From a virus: a DNA stretch of 32,548 nucleotides. The notes below the pieces were generated by a model that made no database searches, had not been told where the DNA came from, and worked only from the letters and a program-made list of their open reading frames with translations. How positions within the stretch are numbered: position 1 is the stretch's first letter; every line of letters starts with the position of its first letter. Shown here one piece after another: positions 5,941 through 28,887 of the stretch. The DNA lies in the IMG/VR virus record IMGVR_UViG_3300045999_001001, positions 1 through 32,548 of that record; one strand, written 5' to 3'. Both the position numbers and the translations under genes were made by a program.

Positions 5941-6343
5941 TGTGCCGCTTGAACCCAAGGGCAAAGGCAGGCCGAGGTTTTCCCGACATGGGAAGTTCAC
6001 CAAGGTTTACACCGACCAAGCAACACTTGATTACGAAACCGCAATCCAACTGTGCGCCAGCAAAGCAATGGGGGTAAGCAAGCCCATAGAAACGCCTGTG
6101 AGTGTTTATTTGTACATCAGGGTATCAATTCCTAAGTCGTACTCAAAAAAGCGCACAGAGGCTTGTTTAAGCGGTTCTGAGCGCCCAGCAAAGAAGCCAG
6201 ATATTGACAATATTGCAAAAGCATTTTTGGACGCAATGAACGGTACGGTTTACCTTGACGATACTCAAGTGGTTGACTTGAACATCAAAAAGATTTACTC
6301 AGCGGTGGCTGGGGTGGATGTAGCAATTATGGAGGCTGCATGA
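5924..6343 (+). CDS. rusA: RusA-type Holliday junction resolvase
   Basis: 139 aa. Cuts four-way DNA junctions so branched replication products can be packaged. The N-terminal VPLEPKGKGRPRFSR (residues 7-21) and the acidic cluster KPDIDNIAKAFLDAMNG then VYLDDTQVV (91-117) give Asp93, Asp95, Asn96, Asp103, Asp112 and Asp113, matching the RusA metal-binding pattern. Length is typical (E. coli RusA about 120). The start at 5924 has GGAG about 11 nt upstream. Its stop overlaps the next start (ATGA). Confidence 0.94.
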   Translation: MSIVFDVPLEPKGKGRPRFSRHGKFTKVYTDQATLDYETAIQLCASKAMGVSKPIETPVSVYLYIRVSIPKSYSKKRTEACLSGSERPAKKPDIDNIAKAFLDAMNGTVYLDDTQVVDLNIKKIYSAVAGVDVAIMEAA

Positions 6344-7134
6344 ACCCTTACAAAATAACCGAACCAACGTGCATCAGTTTTAGCGGTGGGCGCACAAGTG
6401 CCTATATGTTGTATAAAGTATTAGAAGCTGGGGGGGGGCAACTGCCAAGCGAGGCTGTTGTTTGCTTTGCCAATACTGGCAAGGAAGATGAGGCCACATT
6501 GAAGTTTGTACAAGCCTGCTCTAACAATTGGAATGTCCCTATCGTTTGGCTTGAGTTTGCTAAAAACCCGCAGAAATTTGTTGAAGTTGACTTTAAAGCA
6601 GCATCCAGAGATGGTGAACCCTTTGCCGAGATGATTCAACAAAAGCAGTTTTTGCCAAACTCAGTTATGCGATTCTGTACAACAGAACTCAAGATTCACC
6701 CGATAACTCGCTTCATGAAGTCAAAAGGGTTTGATGAATTTCAGACTTTTGCAGGGATTCGGGCTGATGAACCAAGGCGAGTCAGTAAATTGCGGCAAAC
6801 AGTCCATGCACCCTTGGCCTTGGCTGGTGTCACCCAAACCCATGTCCAGCAGTTTTGGAAAGAAAACGATTTCGATCTTGGTCTTCAGTTTGTGGACAAG
6901 ATAACACCGCTTGGAAACTGTGATTTGTGCTTTATGAAGGGCGCACATCAACTAATGTCCATCATTCAGCATGAGCCTAATCGGGCTATTTGGTGGGCAA
7001 AGCAAGAGGAAATCATTGGCGGCAGATTTTCAAAAGACCGCCCGACCTATGCTTCAATGAGCCAATTTGGAAAAGACCAAATAGATTTGTTTGACGCAAC
7101 AGAGGAAACAATAGCTTGTTTTTGTGGAGATTAA
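6340..7134 (+). CDS. PP-loop enzyme, PAPS reductase/DndC-like family
   Basis: 264 aa. Belongs to the adenine-nucleotide alpha-hydrolase (PP-loop) superfamily: SGGRTS (residues 15-20) binds ATP pyrophosphate, FANTGKEDEATL follows the second strand, and RFCTTELKIHP (111-121) plus GIRADEPRR (139-147) are typical of PAPS-reductase-like proteins. Cys113, the CDLC pair (Cys194, Cys197) and the C-terminal CFC (Cys260, Cys262) could hold an Fe-S cluster or zinc. Phage relatives are common but their substrates are mostly unknown: sulfur insertion into a nucleic acid, sulfate reduction or host-defence roles are all possible. GGAGG precedes the ATG. The gene contains a run of nine G at 6430-6438. Confidence 0.88.
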   Translation: MNPYKITEPTCISFSGGRTSAYMLYKVLEAGGGQLPSEAVVCFANTGKEDEATLKFVQACSNNWNVPIVWLEFAKNPQKFVEVDFKAASRDGEPFAEMIQQKQFLPNSVMRFCTTELKIHPITRFMKSKGFDEFQTFAGIRADEPRRVSKLRQTVHAPLALAGVTQTHVQQFWKENDFDLGLQFVDKITPLGNCDLCFMKGAHQLMSIIQHEPNRAIWWAKQEEIIGGRFSKDRPTYASMSQFGKDQIDLFDATEETIACFCGD

Positions 7135-9578: not shown

Positions 9579-11657
9579 ATGGCACGAATACCCAATGACC
9601 AACGCCTTGCCAATCTGCACGCTGAAGCACTGCGGCAGTTCAACGATATACAAACTGCATTGCGGGATGAACGCCTGCAATGCCTGCAAGACAGACGGTT
9701 TTATTCTCTCTGCGGCGCACAGTGGGAAGGCCCATTGTGGGATCAGTACGAAAACAAACCCAAGTTTGAGGTCAACAAAATCATGTTGGCGGTCATTCGC
9801 ATCGTCAATGAATATCGCAATAACCGCATCACCGTTGACTATGTAAGCAAAGACGGGACTGAAAACGACAGACTGGCAGAAGTCTGTGATGGTCTGTATC
9901 GTGCTGATGAACAGGCATCGGTTGCTGATGAGGCTTACGACAACGCCTTTGAGGAAGCCGTGGGCGGTGGCATTGGCGCATGGCGCTTACGGACTGTCTA
10001 CGAGGACGAGGAAGACCCAGAGAACGAGCGCCAGCGCATCAGGTTCGAGCCAATCTTTGATGCTGACTCCAGCGTGTTCTTTGACCTAAATGCCAAGCGA
10101 CAAGACAAGTCGGACGCTAAGTATTGCTTTGTGGTCACCAGCATGACCCGTGAAAGCTACAAAGAAACCTACAACGATGACCCAACGGACTGGCCAAAAA
10201 TCATCCATCAATACGAGTTTGACTGGGCAACACCAGACGTAGTGTTTGTGGCTGAGTACTACAAGGTTGAGGAAAAGACCGAGGTTATCCGCATATTCCA
10301 AGCGATTGATGGGACTGAGGAACGCTATACCCAGACGGACTTTGCGAACGATGAGGCGCTAGAGGAAACCCTGATGGCAATCGGCACTCGCGAGGTGCGC
10401 CAAAAGCGTATCAAGCGGATGCGAGTTCGCAAATACATCATGTCGGGCGGCAAGGTGCTCGAGGACGCAGGCTACATTGCAGGCCGAAACATTCCCATTG
10501 TGGTGGTCTACGGCAAGCGGTGGTTTGTGGACAACATTGAGCGTTGCATGGGTGCTGTGCGCCTAGCTAAAGATGCCCAACGCCTTAAGAATATGCAACT
10601 GTCCAAGCTGGGCGAGATAAGCGCACTGTCTAGTATCGAAAAGCCCATCATGACCCCTGAGCAAGTAGCAGGGCATCAAGTGATGTGGGCTGAAGACAAT
10701 CTGCGGGATTACCCTTATCTGCTGGTCAACCCAATCACTGGGCCAGATGGCAACACTCAAGTGACTGGGCCATTGGCTTACACCAAGTCGGCAGCAATCC
10801 CGCCTGCAATGGCGGCACTGTTGCAGATTACCGAGCAGGATATGCAGGACATTTTGGGCAACCCACAAGGGGCTGACAAGATGGTTTCAGGCGTATCAGG
10901 CAAAGCGGTAGAGATGATTCAAACCCGTGTGGATATGCAGACCTTCATCTACATGAGCAACTTCGCCAAGGGTATGAAGCGATGCGGCGAGATATGGCTT
11001 GGCATGGCAAAGGAAATCTACACCGAGGACAAGCGCAAGATGAAAACCATTGCCCCAACTGGTGAGGCTGGCATGGTCGAACTGATGCAACCCACGATTG
11101 ACACCGAGACTGGTGCTGTGGTGATGGCAAATGACCTGTCCAGCGCCACATTTGATGTGGTTGCCGAGGTTGGACCATCATCCAGCAGTAAACGTGCGGC
11201 CACGGTCAGAGCGTTGACAGGAATGCTTCAAATCACCCAAGACCCTGAGACCCAGCAAGTTCTGACTGCAATGGCGATGATGAACATGGAAGGCGAGGGC
11301 GTTGGGGATGCAAATGCTTATTTCCGCAAGAAGTTACTGCGGATGGGTGTTGTACAGGCAACCGAAGATGAAGCACAGGAAATGATGGTAGAGATACAGG
11401 GTCAGCCTCAAGACCCCAATGCCGTATTCCTGCAAGCAGCGGCTGAAGAGGCAATGGCTAAGGCGGCTAAAGCCAGAGCCGATACCGTGGACACAATCGC
11501 CGATGCCGAATACAAACGTGCCAAGACTGTTGAAACGCTGGCAAAAGTGGACATGGATTCGCAAGAACGTGCTATGCGGATGATGGAGACGGTTGTCCCG
11601 CCTGGCCAGATTGAACCAACACCAGGCACACGGGTTATGGTCGAGCCAGGGGTTTAA
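9579..11657 (+). CDS. Portal protein, P22-type
   Basis: 692 aa, close to P22 gp1 (725). Twelve copies form the ring through which DNA enters and leaves. The N-terminal FYSLCGAQWEGPLWDQYENKP region (about residues 42-62), followed by VNEYRNNRITVDYVSKDG, is characteristic of P22-like portals. The C-terminal part (from about residue 600) is a long Ala/Glu/Lys helix (ADAEYKRAKTVETLAKVD) like the barrel helix. AAGGA precedes the ATG. It follows terL, as expected. Confidence 0.95.
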   Translation: MARIPNDQRLANLHAEALRQFNDIQTALRDERLQCLQDRRFYSLCGAQWEGPLWDQYENKPKFEVNKIMLAVIRIVNEYRNNRITVDYVSKDGTENDRLAEVCDGLYRADEQASVADEAYDNAFEEAVGGGIGAWRLRTVYEDEEDPENERQRIRFEPIFDADSSVFFDLNAKRQDKSDAKYCFVVTSMTRESYKETYNDDPTDWPKIIHQYEFDWATPDVVFVAEYYKVEEKTEVIRIFQAIDGTEERYTQTDFANDEALEETLMAIGTREVRQKRIKRMRVRKYIMSGGKVLEDAGYIAGRNIPIVVVYGKRWFVDNIERCMGAVRLAKDAQRLKNMQLSKLGEISALSSIEKPIMTPEQVAGHQVMWAEDNLRDYPYLLVNPITGPDGNTQVTGPLAYTKSAAIPPAMAALLQITEQDMQDILGNPQGADKMVSGVSGKAVEMIQTRVDMQTFIYMSNFAKGMKRCGEIWLGMAKEIYTEDKRKMKTIAPTGEAGMVELMQPTIDTETGAVVMANDLSSATFDVVAEVGPSSSSKRAATVRALTGMLQITQDPETQQVLTAMAMMNMEGEGVGDANAYFRKKLLRMGVVQATEDEAQEMMVEIQGQPQDPNAVFLQAAAEEAMAKAAKARADTVDTIADAEYKRAKTVETLAKVDMDSQERAMRMMETVVPPGQIEPTPGTRVMVEPGV

Positions 11658-11660
11658 GAC

Positions 11661-13757
11661 ATGGCTGATTTGCGAGAATCTGCCAGAGACCCCCGTGGGG
11701 ACTTTATGCAGGCAACCCCTAGAGAGCCAATCTCAGGGTTTTTGTCTGACTTGACGGCATCACTTTACAGCCCAGAGCGAACCCAAACCCTGCAAGGCAT
11801 AGCACGGTTTTTTGATGTGCCAGAGTTGAGCCGAACTTTGAACAGGTATTCTTACGGACAGCCAATCACCAATATTGGCAAAGCAAACGTGCCGCTGATA
11901 CCTGATGACACAGCGGCGGCGGCGTTATTGGTCGCACCATTGGCTACTAAAGGAACACAGTTTGGCGCAAAGGCTGGTCGTCTTGGTGTCAAAGTTATCG
12001 GTCAAGAGATTGCAGACAGGGTGGCTACACGCCAACCTATGATGCCAAGTGCTTTTTCGGTTGGGGCTGATGCGACAATGTTGCAAGGCCAAACCCCCTT
12101 GTCAAAACCAAAAACATGGGATGCGACTGCGGCACAAAAAGCAAAAATGCTTGCAGACATAGGAACAGACCCAAAAACTATTTGGGAACAGACTGGAACT
12201 TGGAAAGGCCCAGATGGTAAGTGGCGGCAGGAACTTATGCCAGAAAAAATCAACATTGAGGAAAGTTTATATGAAACAGCCCAAGAAGGCCCGTTCTTCC
12301 GAGTTCAGCCAAAAACTTTTGCCGCAACTGGACAAAAAAATCGCGGAATACGAGAAGAAATACAGCAACCCGACATTGTCGGAGGAACAAATGGAAGCAA
12401 TGTTCCGCAATCAATATCGGACGAAACGGTCGATCAATTCGTAAACACGCCAAATAATTTTGTTCGCCAAATAGCTGATGAGTTTACTCAAAGAACATCT
12501 GGGCAAAAATATGAATTACCCAAAATGCCCCCATCAAGTTTGGCTAAACAATCAGCGATAGGACGCACGTTTCAATTAGCGTCTGAAGGCGATGAGCTTT
12601 ATAAAAATACTGTATTTGAAGAATATGGTAAAAAATTCCCACAATTAATTGAATCAACTGGCGCTAAAAATTATGACCAACTTTTAGAAGCCTCATATTT
12701 ACAACTTGCAAAAGAAACACAAGACCAGTTTTATTCCTTGCCAGTTAGTTTGTCCTATCACAGGACGGGGGAGGGTAGTTATTCCAGCAGTAAAGAAATG
12801 CTTAAAGATGTTTATGGTAATAAGCATTTGTATGTTTATCAAGGGGGTGACCCACATGACTTTTTAAATGCGGTTGACCCACAAACAAAACTTAACACGA
12901 ATGAGATGTTTCGTGCAGTACACGATTTTTATGGCCATGCAGTGCATGGAAATCAATTTGGGGCAAAAGGTGAAGAAATTGCATACGGCGCACATTCACA
13001 AATGTTTTCCCCATTAGCGCGAATTGCAATGGCAAGTGAAACAAGAGGGCAAAACTCTTTTGTTAACTACACGCCAATAAATGCAGAATTAAAAGCAAGA
13101 ATTAACAAACTCAACGGTATACGTTATGAGGCAAATAGAAGCGGCAAATTAGATGATGTAGTTGAAATTGATAAACTACTTGGCGAAGCATGGCAAAACT
13201 TCCAATTTGCCCCGCAAAAAAGCGTTTTGTTGCCGCCAGAGTTTTTAGACATATCTTTTACGGGGGGTATGCCAAAATATATACAGCCTTTAATAAAACC
13301 AGAACTAGGCACAACTTTTTCTGAAACTTTGACGCATTTTAGCAATAGACCTGATTTGACATTCCTTGACCCTAGCCGTTATGGGCAAGGTATCAAGGGC
13401 AGAGAAATGGAAAGGCTATTAGGTACAGAAAATCCAGTTCTGGAAAGGTCGTATGCATATATTGGAGACCCCTCAAAAGTGCGTGCTGAACCAGGTTTAG
13501 GCATTTATAAATACGGCGCAGAAAGCAAAGGCTTATATAACCTTTTCGCTGACCCGTTGGCATTTAGAACTTTGGCGATGGAGTCAAGTCGCACGCCATT
13601 TACATCAAAATACAACCAAGGAATTCCTGATACTGGGCAAGCATTTACTGATGTTGAGCGAATGGCTAAAGAGTATGGTTATGAAGGCGCTGCAAACCCA
13701 GAGCAAGGAACTGCAATTTTGTTTGGCCCAACCGCTGTTAAGAGAGCGCCACCATGA
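11661..13757 (+). CDS. Large polyvalent protein with HDxxGH domain and ADP-ribosyltransferase-like C-terminus
   Basis: 698 aa between portal and scaffold, where P22 has no such gene. Residues 1-60 look like a virion-protein anchor. A region at about 416-473 (MFRAVHDFYGHAVHGNQFG to MASETRGQN) is conserved in phage polyproteins as I recall and holds His421, Asp422, His426, Glu438, His445, Glu460 and Arg462, a plausible metal or catalytic site. The C-terminal part (LTHFSNRPDLTFLDPSRYG with His559, then ERSYAYIGDP) resembles the ART domain of polyvalent proteins. The protein may be ejected with DNA to modify host targets. Its second half is visibly more A/T-rich than the portal gene, suggesting acquisition. 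AGGGG precedes the ATG. Confidence 0.65.
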   Translation: MADLRESARDPRGDFMQATPREPISGFLSDLTASLYSPERTQTLQGIARFFDVPELSRTLNRYSYGQPITNIGKANVPLIPDDTAAAALLVAPLATKGTQFGAKAGRLGVKVIGQEIADRVATRQPMMPSAFSVGADATMLQGQTPLSKPKTWDATAAQKAKMLADIGTDPKTIWEQTGTWKGPDGKWRQELMPEKINIEESLYETAQEGPFFRVQPKTFAATGQKNRGIREEIQQPDIVGGTNGSNVPQSISDETVDQFVNTPNNFVRQIADEFTQRTSGQKYELPKMPPSSLAKQSAIGRTFQLASEGDELYKNTVFEEYGKKFPQLIESTGAKNYDQLLEASYLQLAKETQDQFYSLPVSLSYHRTGEGSYSSSKEMLKDVYGNKHLYVYQGGDPHDFLNAVDPQTKLNTNEMFRAVHDFYGHAVHGNQFGAKGEEIAYGAHSQMFSPLARIAMASETRGQNSFVNYTPINAELKARINKLNGIRYEANRSGKLDDVVEIDKLLGEAWQNFQFAPQKSVLLPPEFLDISFTGGMPKYIQPLIKPELGTTFSETLTHFSNRPDLTFLDPSRYGQGIKGREMERLLGTENPVLERSYAYIGDPSKVRAEPGLGIYKYGAESKGLYNLFADPLAFRTLAMESSRTPFTSKYNQGIPDTGQAFTDVERMAKEYGYEGAANPEQGTAILFGPTAVKRAPP

Positions 13758-13832: not shown

Positions 13833-14678
13833 ATGGGGTCAAAGATGAATCAAAAGGCAGTAATTGAAGACAATGAACCTGATGTAGAAGAAGAGGAAAT
13901 CGAAGTCAACGAACCCGTTGACGAGATTGAACCAGAAGATACCGAGGAAGTTGTTGTCAGTATTGGTGAGGAAGCGCCACCTCCCGAAGAACATACTCCT
14001 GCGCCTGAATGGGTAAAAGAGTTGCGTAAGACGAACCGAGAACTGCAACGGCAGAATCGTGAATTGCAAGGCAGGCTACAAGCCGCACCACCTGAGACCA
14101 AACCAGTGGTGATTGGAAATAAGCCAAAGCTGGAAGATCACGACTATGACGCTGACAAGTACGAGGAAGCATTGACAGACTGGTTTGACAGAAAACGTCA
14201 AGCCGATGATGTCAACGCCAAGCAAGAAGCTGAAGTTATGAATCAGCAGAAAGCATGGCAAGCCAAGTTGGATGGTTATGGCAAGGCGAAAGCCGAACTA
14301 AGAGTAAAGGACTTTGAAGATGCTGAAGAAGTTGCTCAACAAGTTTTTTCTATCACCCAGCAAGGCGTTTTGCTGCAAGGTGCAGATAATCCTGCACTCG
14401 TTGTTTACGCACTTGGTAAGAACCCTGCAAAGGCTAAAGAGTTGGCTGAAATCAAAGACCCCGTAAAGTTTGCTTTTGCGGTAGCAAAACTGGAGAAAGA
14501 CTTGAAAGTTACAAACCGTAGGCAAGCACCCGCACCCGAAAGAATCATCAGTGGAACTGGTCGTTCATCTGGTGCGGTGGACTCAACACTTGAACGGCTG
14601 CGAGCAGATGCAGAACGTACGGGAAACATGACGAAAGTCATAGCGTACAAAGCGCAAAAACGAGCAGCATCCAAATAA
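13833..14678 (+). CDS. Capsid scaffolding protein
   Basis: 281 aa (P22 gp8 is 303). Very acidic N-terminus (residues 10-50), a helical middle with coiled-coil character (TNRELQRQNRELQGRLQAA, about 67-85) and a basic C-terminal end (IAYKAQKRAASK) that would contact the coat protein. Position between portal and coat is that of scaffolds. Two in-frame ATGs (13833 and 13845) are possible; 13845 has GGGG upstream, so the true product may be four residues shorter. Confidence 0.85.
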   Translation: MGSKMNQKAVIEDNEPDVEEEEIEVNEPVDEIEPEDTEEVVVSIGEEAPPPEEHTPAPEWVKELRKTNRELQRQNRELQGRLQAAPPETKPVVIGNKPKLEDHDYDADKYEEALTDWFDRKRQADDVNAKQEAEVMNQQKAWQAKLDGYGKAKAELRVKDFEDAEEVAQQVFSITQQGVLLQGADNPALVVYALGKNPAKAKELAEIKDPVKFAFAVAKLEKDLKVTNRRQAPAPERIISGTGRSSGAVDSTLERLRADAERTGNMTKVIAYKAQKRAASK

Positions 14679-14695: not shown

Positions 14696-15985
14696 ATGAG
14701 TAATTCATTCAGTAAGGAAGAACGCGTAGCGTTTGAGGACATTCTTGAGGGCTTTAATGATGCCCTAGTTTTGTCCCGCAACGTATCCATCTACAACACA
14801 GATAGTTCGATGATGGAACGCACCAACAACGTTATCTATCGTCCACAGCCCTACATCGCTCAGTCGTATGATGGCATGGACCAGACCAACAACTTCACCG
14901 CATACACACAGCTTTCAGTACCAGCGACACTCGGCTTTCAAAAGTCTGTGCCGTTCATTCTGGACGCTTTGGAATTGCGTGATGCACTGCAAGAGGGTCG
15001 CTTGGGCGAAGCCGCAAAGCAGAAACTTGCATCCGACATCAACATCGCCATCATGAACACTGCCGCAAACCTCGGTTCGTTGGTGGTCACTGTCAGCACA
15101 GCCGCTGGTGACTATGACGATATCGCTTTGTGCGACAGCATCATGAACGAGCAGGGTGTTCAATCTTTTGACCGTTACATGGCTTTGTCTAGTCGTGACT
15201 ACAACGGCATCGCTGGCAATATTGCTGGTGGCGCTGGTGGCGCATCTGTGTCACGTAGTTTTGCTGGTAACAAGTCAAACAATGCGTTTGAGCGTTCTTA
15301 TGTTGGTATGGTCGCAGGCTTTGAGACCTACAAACTTGACTATGCAAACCGTATTGCTGCGGCAACTGGTTCTGACCCAACGATGAGCACTTTGGCTGCG
15401 GCTTTGAACTACTATGTTCCTGTTGCAACCTCAACTGCTGTCACTGGTGAAACTGGCAACGTGGACAATCGTTTCCAAACGATTACCGTGTCCAGCACAA
15501 CCGACTTGCCAGCAGGAACTGCCATCGAAATCGAAGGCGTTGAAGCTGTGCATCACATCACCAAACAAGGTACTGGATTCTCCAAGACCTTCCGTGTGGT
15601 GAGCGTTACCAATGCAACTACTTGCGTTATCACACCTCCAATCATTTCCGCACAAGGTGGAACTGATGCCGAGTTGCAGTATCAAAACTGTATCGTGACT
15701 GCCGCTTCTGGTCGCACCATCAACCGCTTGAATACCGATGCCGCACCTATCAACTGCTTCTGGCAGAAAGATGCGCTGGAGATTCTGCCTGGTCGTTACG
15801 CTGTCCCGTCCGATGCTGGTGTCGCAGTGATGCGTGCCTCCACCGATCAAGGCATCGAGCTGGTCATGCAGAAGCAATACGATGTAAACACCATGAAAAC
15901 CAAGTATCGCCTTGATACCTTGTTTGGCGTGGTTAATAAACAGCCAGAGATGTCCGGCATCCTGTTGTTCAACCAAACACCTTGA
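14696..15985 (+). CDS. Major capsid (coat) protein, P22-type
   Basis: 429 aa, practically the same as P22 gp5 (430). The N-terminus (EDILEGFNDALVLSRNVSIYN) and QSYDGMDQTNNFTAYTQLSVPATLGFQKSVPF carry the P22-coat pattern, and residues about 250-350 (IEIEGVEAVHHITKQGTGF) correspond to the inserted domain region. A strong AGGAG precedes the ATG. It follows the scaffold with a 17-nt gap. Confidence 0.95.
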   Translation: MSNSFSKEERVAFEDILEGFNDALVLSRNVSIYNTDSSMMERTNNVIYRPQPYIAQSYDGMDQTNNFTAYTQLSVPATLGFQKSVPFILDALELRDALQEGRLGEAAKQKLASDINIAIMNTAANLGSLVVTVSTAAGDYDDIALCDSIMNEQGVQSFDRYMALSSRDYNGIAGNIAGGAGGASVSRSFAGNKSNNAFERSYVGMVAGFETYKLDYANRIAAATGSDPTMSTLAAALNYYVPVATSTAVTGETGNVDNRFQTITVSSTTDLPAGTAIEIEGVEAVHHITKQGTGFSKTFRVVSVTNATTCVITPPIISAQGGTDAELQYQNCIVTAASGRTINRLNTDAAPINCFWQKDALEILPGRYAVPSDAGVAVMRASTDQGIELVMQKQYDVNTMKTKYRLDTLFGVVNKQPEMSGILLFNQTP

Positions 15986-24294: not shown

Positions 24295-24738
24295 ATGACC
24301 GATGGACTGCGAGAGAACCTGACAAAGGTTTTTATGCTTCCCCAACCAGCCGTTGAGTGGCTGGTAATGGTCTATGACGCAATCCAAGTCTTTGATGACG
24401 TAGCAGATGGCGACCCAGTAGCACGAGAAGACCTGAATGCGGCCATTTGGAACACGCTGGTGGGTATGCACCAGAACGCATTTTTTATCGGCAACAGCAC
24501 CCATTTAACGCCCTTGCTGGCGACAATGATTCTCAAGTGGCAAGCCTCAGACACGGCAGAGCGCAATAAACGAGCTGATGCTAAGTCGTTCATGTGGCGA
24601 GCTGGGTATTACGATTTGATTTTGATGGCGGTCTCGCTGGTGCATGGGGCTGGTTTTGCTACCAAGCACGGTCATCATGTGATGGCTTTGTATGGCGAAA
24701 CGCTAGAAGATTATTTAAAGGAGTTCGGCGATGCCTGA
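24295..24738 (+). CDS. Hypothetical helical protein preceding ejection genes
   Basis: 147 aa, helical (VFMLPQPAVEWLVMVYDAIQ; DVADGDPVAREDLNAAIWNT; WRAGYYDLILMAVSLVHGAG). The start at 24295 has AGGAG 8 nt upstream. It occupies the place of P22 gp14 before gp7, but I see no sequence signature of gp14, so the equivalence is positional. Its stop overlaps the next gene. Confidence 0.7.
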   Translation: MTDGLRENLTKVFMLPQPAVEWLVMVYDAIQVFDDVADGDPVAREDLNAAIWNTLVGMHQNAFFIGNSTHLTPLLATMILKWQASDTAERNKRADAKSFMWRAGYYDLILMAVSLVHGAGFATKHGHHVMALYGETLEDYLKEFGDA

Positions 24739-25408
24739 TCCAATTACAGGTCTATCCATTGGGGCATCCCTGCTTGGTAGTTCAATGCAGGCAGATGCCG
24801 CAAGTTCTGCGGCATCTGCACAAGTTGAATCAGCAAGAATGGGTATCGAGGAACAGCGCAGGCAATTTGATGCGTTACAAGCCTTGTTAAAGCCTTATAC
24901 AGAAGTTGGTGTTCCTGCCATTGAGGCACAACAAGCGTTTCTTGGGATGAAAGGGCCAGAAGCAGAGCAAGCTGCCATTGAACGCATTCGTGGCGGTGAG
25001 ACTTTTAAAACACTTGCACAACAGGGTGAGGAAGCATTATTGCAAAGGGCATCGGCCACTGGTGGGCTACGCGGCGGCAATATTCAAGGGGCATTGGCTC
25101 AATTCAGGCCAGAACTTTTGTCCAGCTTAATTGATCAACAATATGGGCGTTTGGGTGGTTTGGCAAAAATTGGTCAATCATCAGCCGCAGGTGTTGGTGC
25201 TAGCGGGATGGAAACAGGGACAAATATTGCAAATTTGCTTGCACAGCAAGGTGCGGCACGAGCTGGCGGTATTCGTGGCGAAGCCACTGCTTATGGCAAA
25301 TTATTGAATGCACCTTTTCAATTAGCTGGGTTTCAGTCAGGCGGCGGTTTAAGTGGCCCAATGAATTTTGATCCGTTCAATCAAATTGGCGGGGGGATGT
25401 TTTTCTAA
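24731..25408 (+). CDS. DNA ejection protein, P22 gp7-like
   Basis: 225 aa (P22 gp7 is 229). Released into the host with the DNA to form the channel across the envelope. Pattern: a Gly/Ala-rich N-terminus (GLSIGASLLGSSMQADAASS), EEQRRQFDALQALLKPYTEVG, GEEALLQRASATGGLRGGNI and RPELLSSLIDQQYGRLGGLA (about 118-147), a signature of gp7-type and related internal virion proteins. A strong AAGGAG is present. First of three ejection genes. Confidence 0.9.
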   Translation: MPDPITGLSIGASLLGSSMQADAASSAASAQVESARMGIEEQRRQFDALQALLKPYTEVGVPAIEAQQAFLGMKGPEAEQAAIERIRGGETFKTLAQQGEEALLQRASATGGLRGGNIQGALAQFRPELLSSLIDQQYGRLGGLAKIGQSSAAGVGASGMETGTNIANLLAQQGAARAGGIRGEATAYGKLLNAPFQLAGFQSGGGLSGPMNFDPFNQIGGGMFF

Positions 25409-26961
25409 TGGCAACAATTAGCGCAAACCTACCACAACCGATAGATTATTCTATTGACGTAAAAATGCCTTTTGAGGCCTCTTTGGAAGGCTTTAAATTA
25501 GGCTCGGATGTAGCAACAATTCAAGCTGCACAGCAGAAGCGTTTACTTGAACAGCAAGCAATGCAACAAACACAAGCACGGCAAGCTGAACTAGGTACAA
25601 GACTCAAAAGTTTTTATAACAAAAAACCAGAGGAAAGAAACTTTGAGGAAATTGAGCAGTTATTTGCATTTGCAGGAAACAAAGACCAGCTAGATGCTTT
25701 GAAGTTAATGGCTGAAGGTACGGATAAAAGACGGCTTGATGCTGATAAGCGTTTTTATGCTCAAGTCATGCTTGGGTTGGAATCAGAGCCAACTGTTGCA
25801 TTCAAGTTGTTAGATGACAAGATTTTGGCAGAAAAAGACCCAGCACAAAAAGCCGCATTAGAAACAATTAAAAGAACCGCTCAAACTGTCAACCCAGCCG
25901 CCGCAGTAAATTTGATTGAACCATATACAGCCTCAATATTCGGAAAAGACTGGTATGCAGGCTTAAAAGAGGCTCGTGTTGAAAGACGAGCACAAGACCT
26001 TGCGCCATCTGCACTACAAAAATCGATTGCTGATGCTGATGAAGCCGTGGCTAAAGCTGAAACTGCACAAGCCACAGCCAAAAACGCAGATGAAAAAGCT
26101 GCCGCTGATGCTGCAAAAGCAAAAGCTGATGCAGACAAAGCTAAAGTGGAAGCGAAGTTTGCAGAACGGCAACAACTTGCCACACTTGAGAAAAGTAACT
26201 GGGATGTCAAAAATCTGAAAAGCCAGATAAGTGACAGATCACAACAACTTAATTTAAGAAGCCAAGAAGTTGCCGCAACTGTTGCTGAAAAATTGGCATC
26301 TGCTGGCGCAAAATTAAATGAAGTCCCTGCGGATACAAAAAAACTTATAAATGAATCTGCTGTTGCAGCGGCGACATCTAAACAATCTGCAGGTCAATTT
26401 AATGACTTGGCAAAACGCCTTGAAGCAGAGGGCGGTGGTTATGGTGTTTTTTCAAGCGCATCAGATTACTTGAAAAAAGGTGTAGGTTTCCAAGGCGGCA
26501 TGACTCAATTGCGCCAAGAATACATACGACTGAGAAATACGGCGGCCATAAAATCATTACCACCAGGCCCAGCAACAGACAGAGACATTGCATTGGCGTT
26601 GCGTGGTTTTCCAGGCGATAACGCATCAGCATCAGACTTGGCGAGTTTTTTGCGTGGCATGGCAAAGTTACAAGACATTGATGCTTCAATCAATAATGCC
26701 AAAACAGATTGGTTGACCAACAATAATGGGTCTTTGGCTAGAGCAAAAAATACTTTTATTGCAGGTGATTACGCTGCAAAAGCAGGTGAAAATTTCAATG
26801 ATTTTTCAACACGAATCATTGATGATGTGACAAAGAAATACGACCCAAGGGCGCAATCGTCAATAGTAGATCAGATACCCACTGATAGAAACCCAAGGCC
26901 AATGGCGACACAAAATAACGTGCGGTTAGCGGCAGATGCAATTTTGCGTGGAGGCCAATAA
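25408..26961 (+). CDS. Internal virion/ejection protein, P22 gp20-position
   Basis: 517 aa (P22 gp20 is 471). N-terminal helices, then a long Ala/Lys/Glu coiled coil at about residues 205-260 (ADEAVAKAETAQATAKNADE) and a C-terminal half with SLPPGPATDRDIALALRGFP, a motif shared by ejection proteins. It is linked to the previous gene by TAATG. Its base composition is more A/T-rich than the capsid genes. Function as an ejected periplasm-spanning component is inferred from order and domain style. Confidence 0.82.
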   Translation: MATISANLPQPIDYSIDVKMPFEASLEGFKLGSDVATIQAAQQKRLLEQQAMQQTQARQAELGTRLKSFYNKKPEERNFEEIEQLFAFAGNKDQLDALKLMAEGTDKRRLDADKRFYAQVMLGLESEPTVAFKLLDDKILAEKDPAQKAALETIKRTAQTVNPAAAVNLIEPYTASIFGKDWYAGLKEARVERRAQDLAPSALQKSIADADEAVAKAETAQATAKNADEKAAADAAKAKADADKAKVEAKFAERQQLATLEKSNWDVKNLKSQISDRSQQLNLRSQEVAATVAEKLASAGAKLNEVPADTKKLINESAVAAATSKQSAGQFNDLAKRLEAEGGGYGVFSSASDYLKKGVGFQGGMTQLRQEYIRLRNTAAIKSLPPGPATDRDIALALRGFPGDNASASDLASFLRGMAKLQDIDASINNAKTDWLTNNNGSLARAKNTFIAGDYAAKAGENFNDFSTRIIDDVTKKYDPRAQSSIVDQIPTDRNPRPMATQNNVRLAADAILRGGQ

Positions 26962-28887
26962 ATGGCAACCGCAGACGAATACGCAGCTTGGATTGTAAAA
27001 AACTCGGCCAAACGGGGTACGCCTGAATTTGATACGGTGGCACAAGCCTATGAAATTGCGAAAGCTGAAGAAACCACCGCTAGGACACAGCAACAACTTG
27101 CTCCTGCACCTCAACCCCCAAGTGCGCTAGATCAACTTATCGGGGCTGGTGAAACTGCTCTAACGCTAGGCACTGCCTTAACAGGCGGGACATTAGGGAC
27201 AATTGTTGGTACTGGTAAAGGTTTGGCGCAACAAATTTTATCTGGTGAATTTGGTACGCCTGAGGCTGTGCGTGAGATTGAAAAAGCTGCTGTAGAAGGC
27301 GCTCAGGCATTGACTTATCAACCAAGAGGTCAAGCTGGCCAAGAAATGGTGCAGGCAACAGGTCAATTTTTAGGTGAAGTTTTGCCGCCTGTTTTGCCAG
27401 TTATTGCATCACCTACTGCGACCGTGCAAGCAATTAGAAGTGCAACCCCAATTATGCAGGCCACAGCCCAGCGTGGTACAGCGGCAGCACGTCAAGCGGC
27501 ACAAGCGACTGGAGAGGCCATTGCAAAACCTGTACAAGCGGCTACAACAGTCGTTCGTGAGGCTTTGGGTATGGAGACCCCTGCTACCACAACAACGACT
27601 GGTGGGCGTGCTTCTGTTGGTGCGGCAGCAACACCAGCAGACCTACAAAGAGTAACGACTGCCGAACAATTGGGTTTTGTCGGTCCTGCTGGCTTAACTG
27701 CTGGACAGAGGACTAGGAATTTTGCAGACCTTCAGTTTGAAAAAGAGACTGCCAAATTAGGTGAAGTAGGCGCACCTCTGCGGGAACGGGTAAGTAATCA
27801 AACGGCAAATTTAATTCAGCAATTTGATGCAATGGTTGATCGTACTGAACCGATGCTAGTAGATGCAAGAGACATTGGCAAAGCCGTAGATAAAGCCGTG
27901 GTCAATAAAGCTGAAGTTTCACGCAGAAAAGTTCGTAATGCTTATACAAAAGCCGAAGAAGATGGTTCTATGCTTGAGCCTGTCACCTTAAATGAGTTGG
28001 CAACCACTGCGGTAGACGTACAGCGTTTTGAAGGCGTTGCACCAAATGTGGCCCCAATCCGTAAAGAAGCTATTCGACTTGGCATCTTGACAGAGGATGC
28101 CGATGGCAACCTAATTGCACAAGCAAAACCTATTGCTGACACCGAATTATTAAGACAATTTACCAACGAAGTTACTGACTGGACTGACAAGAGACAGTCT
28201 TTGATGGCAAGAAAAATTAATTCAGCAATTGATACTGGCACTGAAGGTAAAGGTGGCGAATCTTACAAAGCAGCCCGTAAACTTCGTCAGGATTTTGCCA
28301 ATGAGTTTGAAAACGTAGGATTGACAGCAAAACTTTTGTCAACCAAGCGTGGCACAGATGAGCGCACCATCGCTTTTGATGACATTTTTGACAAGATCAT
28401 AATTAACGCACCACTTGAAGAGATGAACAAAGTCAGAAAAACTTTGCTCACAGCAGGACCAGAAGGTAAGCAGGCTTGGAATGAATTGAAGTCCAACACA
28501 ATTCGTTACATTATCAATAAATCCTTGTCAACAGCCCAAAGGGATGAGCGTGGTCAGCCACTGGTTTCTCCTGACAAACTTAATAGCGTCATTAGGTCTT
28601 TGGACAGGGAAGGCAAGCTAGAAGGTTTGTATGGTAAAAAACAGGCACAGCAAATTCGAGACCTTGGCGAAATTGCAATTGATATTTACACAGCACCACC
28701 AGGCGCAATAAATTTTTCAAACACAGCATCAGCTTTGCAAGTTGCTTTAGACTCGGTTATGACCTTTGGGTTGACTGGGATACCAGCCCCTGCAGTCACG
28801 GCTTTGAGAGAAGCATCTAAATACCTTAAAAATCGTGAAGTCAGAAACAGGGTTCGACAGTCTTTGCAACCTTTGGGAGAACAATAA
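26962..28887 (+). CDS. DNA ejection protein, P22 gp16-position
   Basis: 641 aa (P22 gp16 is 609). The N-terminus (YAAWIVKNSAKRGTPEFDTVAQAYEIAK) is a short repeat-like start seen in phage internal virion proteins. Residues about 58-90 form a Gly-rich hydrophobic segment (GTALTGGTLGTIVGTG) that could insert in the membrane. The rest is helical and charged. GGAGG precedes the ATG. It is the largest of the ejection set and directly precedes the tailspike, as in P22-like order. Confidence 0.85.
   Translation: MATADEYAAWIVKNSAKRGTPEFDTVAQAYEIAKAEETTARTQQQLAPAPQPPSALDQLIGAGETALTLGTALTGGTLGTIVGTGKGLAQQILSGEFGTPEAVREIEKAAVEGAQALTYQPRGQAGQEMVQATGQFLGEVLPPVLPVIASPTATVQAIRSATPIMQATAQRGTAAARQAAQATGEAIAKPVQAATTVVREALGMETPATTTTTGGRASVGAAATPADLQRVTTAEQLGFVGPAGLTAGQRTRNFADLQFEKETAKLGEVGAPLRERVSNQTANLIQQFDAMVDRTEPMLVDARDIGKAVDKAVVNKAEVSRRKVRNAYTKAEEDGSMLEPVTLNELATTAVDVQRFEGVAPNVAPIRKEAIRLGILTEDADGNLIAQAKPIADTELLRQFTNEVTDWTDKRQSLMARKINSAIDTGTEGKGGESYKAARKLRQDFANEFENVGLTAKLLSTKRGTDERTIAFDDIFDKIIINAPLEEMNKVRKTLLTAGPEGKQAWNELKSNTIRYIINKSLSTAQRDERGQPLVSPDKLNSVIRSLDREGKLEGLYGKKQAQQIRDLGEIAIDIYTAPPGAINFSNTASALQVALDSVMTFGLTGIPAPAVTALREASKYLKNREVRNRVRQSLQPLGEQ

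Follow-up and report, generated by a model that had tools for sequence, protein, structure and literature searches.

What is a 698-amino-acid (aa) protein doing between the portal and scaffold genes of a virus that otherwise keeps a P22-like gene order? The gene lies in a stretch of 32,548 nucleotides (positions 1 to 32,548 of IMG/VR record IMGVR_UViG_3300045999_001001), referred to here as the window. Its product joins an exchangeable N-terminal module, the large polyvalent protein associated domain LPD23, a mostly helical domain with an HDFYGH motif (domain A) and a C-terminal domain with an ADP-ribosyltransferase (ART) fold (domain B). We consider it moderately probable that this protein is a polyvalent effector that is packaged in the virion and acts at entry, carrying an ART and probably a metal-dependent enzyme.

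Insertion and mosaic architecture

The effector gene starts with ATG four nucleotides 3' of the portal stop. It occupies exactly the open reading frame (ORF) of 698 codons given for it in an earlier note made from the sequence alone, and its frame is intact. Profile searches yield the order terS, terL, P22-type portal, effector, scaffold, P22-type coat, Ad3 and Hc3. In the three annotated phages that are nearest by portal, MW202867, MW202475 and Pseudomonas phage PfAn1 (69%, 62% and 48% portal identity to the window phage), the portal is followed directly by the scaffold. The effector gene is therefore an insertion, as the earlier note had supposed. Its position among the head genes is kept in P22-like relatives (loci L002, L003 and L036-L038).

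Homology searches recover hundreds of effector relatives. Comparison with the copy in L002 gives a ratio of nonsynonymous to synonymous substitution rates (dN/dS) of 0.12 for the whole gene, 0.28 for its N-terminal part, 0.042 for domain A and 0.050 for domain B. These values and the many relatives rule out a chance ORF, and both domains are under strong purifying selection.

Base composition also divides the gene. The G+C content is 52.5% in the portal gene, 50.7% in the N-terminal 190 codons of the effector and 48.1% in the whole window, and it stands at 39.3% for residues 191-539, 38.1% for domain A and 43.3% for domain B. The second half of the gene had been described as more A/T-rich than the portal gene, which is right (38-39% G+C for residues 191-548). 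Because near relatives (L002, L003, L036, L037 and L039) share this AT-rich dip, the composition arrived with the cargo. In distant relatives, the G+C content of the cargo mostly tracks that of its surroundings.

An alignment of relatives shows what is exchanged and what is kept. Residues from about 190 to 695 form a stable cargo that is mounted on varied N-termini, and some relatives carry extra C-terminal domains, for example a canonical ART-PolyVal domain in L016. The N-terminal module recurs in some 20 viral contigs, in proteins of 555-1863 aa without domains A and B. The other large phage proteins to which it is fused (L294-L315) include PcfJ-like and LPD23-bearing ones, and some of these fusion proteins carry an ART-like stretch. 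Domain A, domain B and the N-terminal module are each found in proteins of other make-up.

The LPD23 match (E 7.7e-8) scores 32.4 bits against a Pfam cut-off of 27. The protein thus carries an LPD domain and several separable fused domains, and it is encoded among the head and packaging genes of a phage with portal and terminase, so that its earlier designation as a polyvalent protein stands. Phage polyvalent proteins (PMC5512222, Burroughs et al. 2017) likewise fuse LPD, ART-type and other enzyme-like domains as mosaic modules and are encoded near head genes. However, domain A belongs to no Pfam LPD family, and 698 aa is short for a group in which many members exceed 2,000 aa.

A structural or assembly factor that is kept in the particle, such as a portal-scaffold accessory with relics of enzyme-like domains, would also suit a gene between portal and scaffold, and would tolerate the variable ART acid described below. 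This explanation is very improbable: sister phages manage without the gene, domains A and B are its most constrained parts while the N-terminus drifts, and the same cargo occurs on other N-termini in relatives outside the P22-like phages.

Domain B and the ADP-ribosyltransferase fold

The AlphaFold2 (AF2) model of domain B, built from 41 homologues, has a predicted local distance difference test (pLDDT) score of 92. Its first Foldseek match in the PDB is the anti-CRISPR ART AcrIF11 (6kyf, E 0.0067, probability 0.98). AcrIF11 also heads the VIA comparison (Z 7.0), followed by MbcT, NatT, ParT, part of a cyanophage A4 pre-ejectosome chain, PARPs and other ARTs. Several of these Z values are modest, in a list that consists almost wholly of this one superfamily. 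When domain B was aligned by hhalign with ART-PolyVal domains taken from the loci of relatives, the match had an E value of 7e-7 over 129 columns, with a score of 44 compared to 16 for the best of 150 shuffled decoys. In this alignment the strand-1 His of ART-PolyVal falls opposite His559, and its GHDG opposite GYEG. The ART-like C-terminus proposed from the sequence is borne out as to its fold, which AF2 and Foldseek recover at residues 540-698, and as to the invariance of His559. Its third acid proved to be variable.

The Pfam ART-PolyVal model PF18760 is not matched by the effector. Since the two are related at profile level only, domain B is classed as a relative rather than a member of ART-PolyVal. 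It shares the strand-1 His and strand-2 Tyr of the ART-PolyVal/Tox-ART-HYD2 clade, but the window protein has E in place of the strand-5 D, and this residue varies among its relatives. The polyvalent ARTs in the literature rely on H, Y and D (PMC5512222), and AcrIF11 requires H20/Y46 and D146/E147 or D115 (PMC12421852). AcrIF11 is the closest solved fold and has the H-Y-acid signature. Unlike it, domain B is fused to other domains and is probably virion-borne, and the third acid is not kept in the family.

Judged from its residues, the window protein could be an H-Y-E ART, and by the same token many relatives must act otherwise or bind nicotinamide adenine dinucleotide (NAD+) only. Because position 675 is acidic in only 15 of the 41 relatives, protein ADP-ribosylation is likely but not assured.

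Domain A and its relatives in phages and bacteria

Domain A was modelled by AF2 from 65 homologues with a pLDDT of 95.4 and a predicted template modelling score of 0.91. Part of it (residues 372-471) matches phrog_3170 in PHROGs. In the model, HDFYGH, GEE...H and ETRGQ sit on three successive helices. An alignment of 106 phage and cellular sequences, gathered with models of the same family and including near-duplicates, keeps Q356, R418, H421, D422, H426, E438, H445 and Q464 in every sequence and E460 in 105. The earlier note had delimited an HDFYGH-containing domain at about 416-473 and remarked on its conserved-looking His, Asp and Glu residues; the motif lies inside that range, and the alignment confirms these residues. 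What it overlooked is that the HDFYGH domain is the more novel part of the effector and, with the ART, its most constrained, and that this domain also exists on its own in cells and in T7-like phages. No family in Pfam, NCBIfam or PADLOC matches domain A, searches of PDB sequences with the effector protein and its domain profiles gave no match, and no mention of phrog_3170 or phrog_7806 was found in the literature. Domain A is a novel, widespread, enzyme-like domain without an assigned function.

The model suggests that domain A is probably a metal-dependent enzyme, with HDxxGH and Glu residues as candidate ligands. Lacking a significant match to a solved enzyme, this proposal draws on the residue pattern and the quality of the model. 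The first chemistry considered was that of the aromatic amino acid hydroxylases, in which H421, H426 and E460 would form the 2-His-1-carboxylate site of a distant non-haem Fe(II) enzyme acting on a host protein or nucleotide. Tryptophan or phenylalanine hydroxylases fill 14 of the first 15 rows of a Foldseek search of 350,542 PDB chains, but these rows are weak (E 0.1-0.5, template modelling score 0.11-0.13, root-mean-square deviation about 18). Such enzymes are absent from the 50 VIA rows shown for domain A. A helical hairpin (model residues 217-262) takes up these rows, and they carry no information on the core.

The HD(F/V)(Y/F)GH of domain A aligns with HD(V/L)FGH of bacterial phenylalanine hydroxylase, with one of 300 shuffled profiles scoring equally high, and the model has the order helix-HxxxxH, helix, helix-E. 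However, the hhalign match covers only the 11-residue motif (probability 4%), the Pfam hydroxylase profile PF00351 is not matched, and the spacing to the carboxylate is 34 residues, compared to about 41 in bacterial phenylalanine hydroxylase. Genes for 2-oxoglutarate-Fe(II) oxygenases or prolyl hydroxylases lie near two stand-alone ('solo') domain A genes of T7-like phages, Haage (L287) and Phylax-28 (L291), but most such T7-like relatives have HDxGH, which is one residue shorter, and no profile match to hydroxylases. The assignment was set aside as a classification and is unlikely; the Foldseek ranks and the motif are suggestive and serve as a lead.

Domain A occurs in at least 585 viral stretches, including large phage proteins. 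Among its stand-alone forms, phrog_3170 includes gp100 of the mycobacteriophage Bxz1 group and gp166 of Gordonia phage Skog. In Gordonia phages and mycobacteriophages, a gene for a DUF7178 protein adjoins the solo gene (L111, 1501-3603; L112, 1717-3519), and this protein is a possible functional partner. A second group, phrog_7806, includes LKA1 gp7 and phi15 ORF2; in LKA1, phi15, shl2 and other phages the protein has 145-190 aa. Its relationship to domain A is indicated by hhalign (E 1e-6, with none of 100 shuffled decoys doing as well) and by Foldseek against viral models. Both groups differ from the effector in that they lack an ART and a polyvalent fusion, and phrog_7806 members have the shortened HDxGH and mostly DTxxQ. 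Homologues of this shortened kind are seen in T7-like Pseudomonas phages (L286, 1329-1820; L287, 623-1123; L273, 3662-4228). The T7-like solo genes belong to the early region: in both phi15 and Haage the gene precedes that for the RNA polymerase, and in Haage no annotated gene comes before it. A role within minutes of the start of infection would suit a family that is present in both virion-type proteins and early genes.

When bacterial genomes were scanned with the window's own family, no relative came up, and a broader profile recovered several kinds. In Proteobacteria, domain A resides within large prophage-like proteins. About 28 actinomycete genomes, almost all from soil bacteria of the family Micromonosporaceae, encode a solo protein of about 230 aa on the chromosome. 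Its gene is divergent to an HsdM-like adenine methylase gene in 25 of 28 loci, beyond which are genes for a protein kinase (24 loci), a UvrD-like helicase (20) and Cas3 (20). CRISPR-like arrays are present in 15 of the 29 loci examined (L335-L363). No description of this locus was found in the literature. Conserved synteny by itself is no proof of joint function. Two reading frames at L350 were discounted: a 710-aa ORF is probably a poor frame, the intact methylase being seen in L353, and a 471-aa plus-strand frame beside domain A is probably antisense to the protein kinase gene, judging by codon-position G+C.

This cellular neighbourhood of DNA-processing defence genes bears on a further chemistry. 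Domain A could represent a new family of metal-dependent hydrolases, such as nucleases, phosphodiesterases or peptidases. It has an HD pair and a set of His, Glu and Asp residues that never vary and that are spread over consecutive helices. Against this, no hydrolase family or fold is matched in Pfam, NCBIfam, PADLOC or the PDB, and the assignment is a tentative possibility.

Probable delivery and meaning for phage-host conflict

In the explanation that we favour, the effector would be produced late, at the same time as the head proteins, would be taken up into the procapsid and would enter the cell along with the first DNA. The N-terminal module would be an exchangeable delivery or assembly part, and the cargo two tandem enzymes. 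The ART of domain B would draw on NAD+ for the modification of one host macromolecule or a few; the simplest target would be a defence protein, just as AcrIF11 modifies Cas8f/Csy1. As a second enzyme, domain A would act at entry on the same target set or pathway, and both would be directed at host defence or takeover factors.

Position and modules make packaging and ejection likely. One solved chain of a cyanophage pre-ejectosome (9k3a) contains an ART-like stretch (VIA Z 4.7 with domain B), and ARTs have been reported beside head genes and in virions (PMC9503650, PMC5512222). The effector N-terminus in L014 is homologous to a phage transglycosylase family; for the one in L039, blastp finds homology (32% identity, E 2e-13) to the 641-aa protein that the window encodes at the gp16 position. 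The region common to this protein and the L039 N-termini is a possible delivery module. In L039 (3449-7719), two adjacent large proteins share N-termini with residues 53-209 of the gp16-position protein.

A late-expressed moron that is not packaged and acts in the producing cell, for example in superinfection exclusion or host shutdown, would also be compatible with the late operon position, and packaging is itself deduced from position and modules. A moron is rather unlikely in view of the modular N-termini common to virion-type proteins, of the ART-like stretch in a pre-ejectosome chain, and of published ARTs that are encoded next to head genes and carried in heads.

Several observations weigh against a packaged two-enzyme effector. 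No solved enzyme matches domain A significantly, the third ART acid is poorly conserved, and the effector's own N-terminus lacks the homology seen between L039 and the gp16-position protein. In addition, the Cas3 synteny in Micromonosporaceae may reflect an inherited neighbourhood rather than function.

The features discussed are collected in Table 1. After Hc3 come tail genes, the gp7-like ejection protein, two proteins that occupy the gp20 and gp16 positions, and the tail spike gene. The protein in the gp20 position (25408-26961) has no PHROG or Pfam match. A phosphoadenosine phosphosulfate reductase-like gene (6340-7134) lies in the early or middle part of the genome.

Table 1. Coordinates in the window of the effector gene, its parts and neighbouring virion genes
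Feature	Position	Strand	Remark
P22-type portal	9579..11657	+	PF16510, E 2e-151
698-aa polyvalent effector gene	11661..13757	+	between portal and scaffold
Exchangeable N-terminal module (about residues 12-103)	11694..11969	+	heads or interrupts other phage proteins
LPD23 (residues 152-192)	12114..12236	+	Pfam PF18838
Domain A (residues 255-548), mostly helical, enzyme-like	12423..13304	+	AF2 model
HDFYGH motif (residues 421-426), candidate metal ligands H421 and H426	12921..12938	+	106/106 relatives
GEE...H segment, invariant polar residues E438 and H445	12972..12995	+	alignment of 106
ETRGQN motif (residues 460-465), candidate third ligand E460	13038..13055	+	D in most T7-like solo relatives
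Domain B (residues 540-698), ART fold, AcrIF11-like	13278..13754	+	AF2, Foldseek, VIA, hhalign
His559 (in LTHFS), first residue of H-Y-acid ART signature	13335..13337	+	41/41 relatives
Tyr598, second signature residue	13452..13454	+	39/41 relatives
Glu675, candidate catalytic acid	13683..13685	+	aligns with D of ART-PolyVal; E or D in 15/41 relatives
Head scaffolding protein	13833..14678	+	phrog_648, E 1e-53
P22-type coat protein	14696..15985	+	PF11651, E 1e-82
DNA ejection protein, P22 gp7-like	24731..25408	+	phrog_598, E 8e-36
641-aa protein, P22 gp16 position	26962..28887	+	residues 53-209 homologous to L039 effector N-terminus

What happens in the opening minutes of an infection is decided by proteins that the phage injects together with its DNA, and few of the enzymes among them are understood. 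In the effector described here, an anti-CRISPR-like ART is joined to a domain that is widespread and highly conserved but has no assigned function. Further work should centre on this HDFYGH domain and in particular on its small homologues in phages and actinomycetes: it stands alone in phi15 and LKA1, phages that are easy to handle, and, beside Cas3, in culturable actinomycetes, so its biochemistry is directly testable. It is a serious possibility, though short of probable, that domain A represents an undescribed enzyme family on both sides of phage-host conflict, employed in virion effectors, as an early gene of T7-like phages, and in a CRISPR-Cas3/methylase/kinase defence locus of Micromonosporaceae. 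If so, a single enzyme family would serve both attack and defence, which would be unusual.
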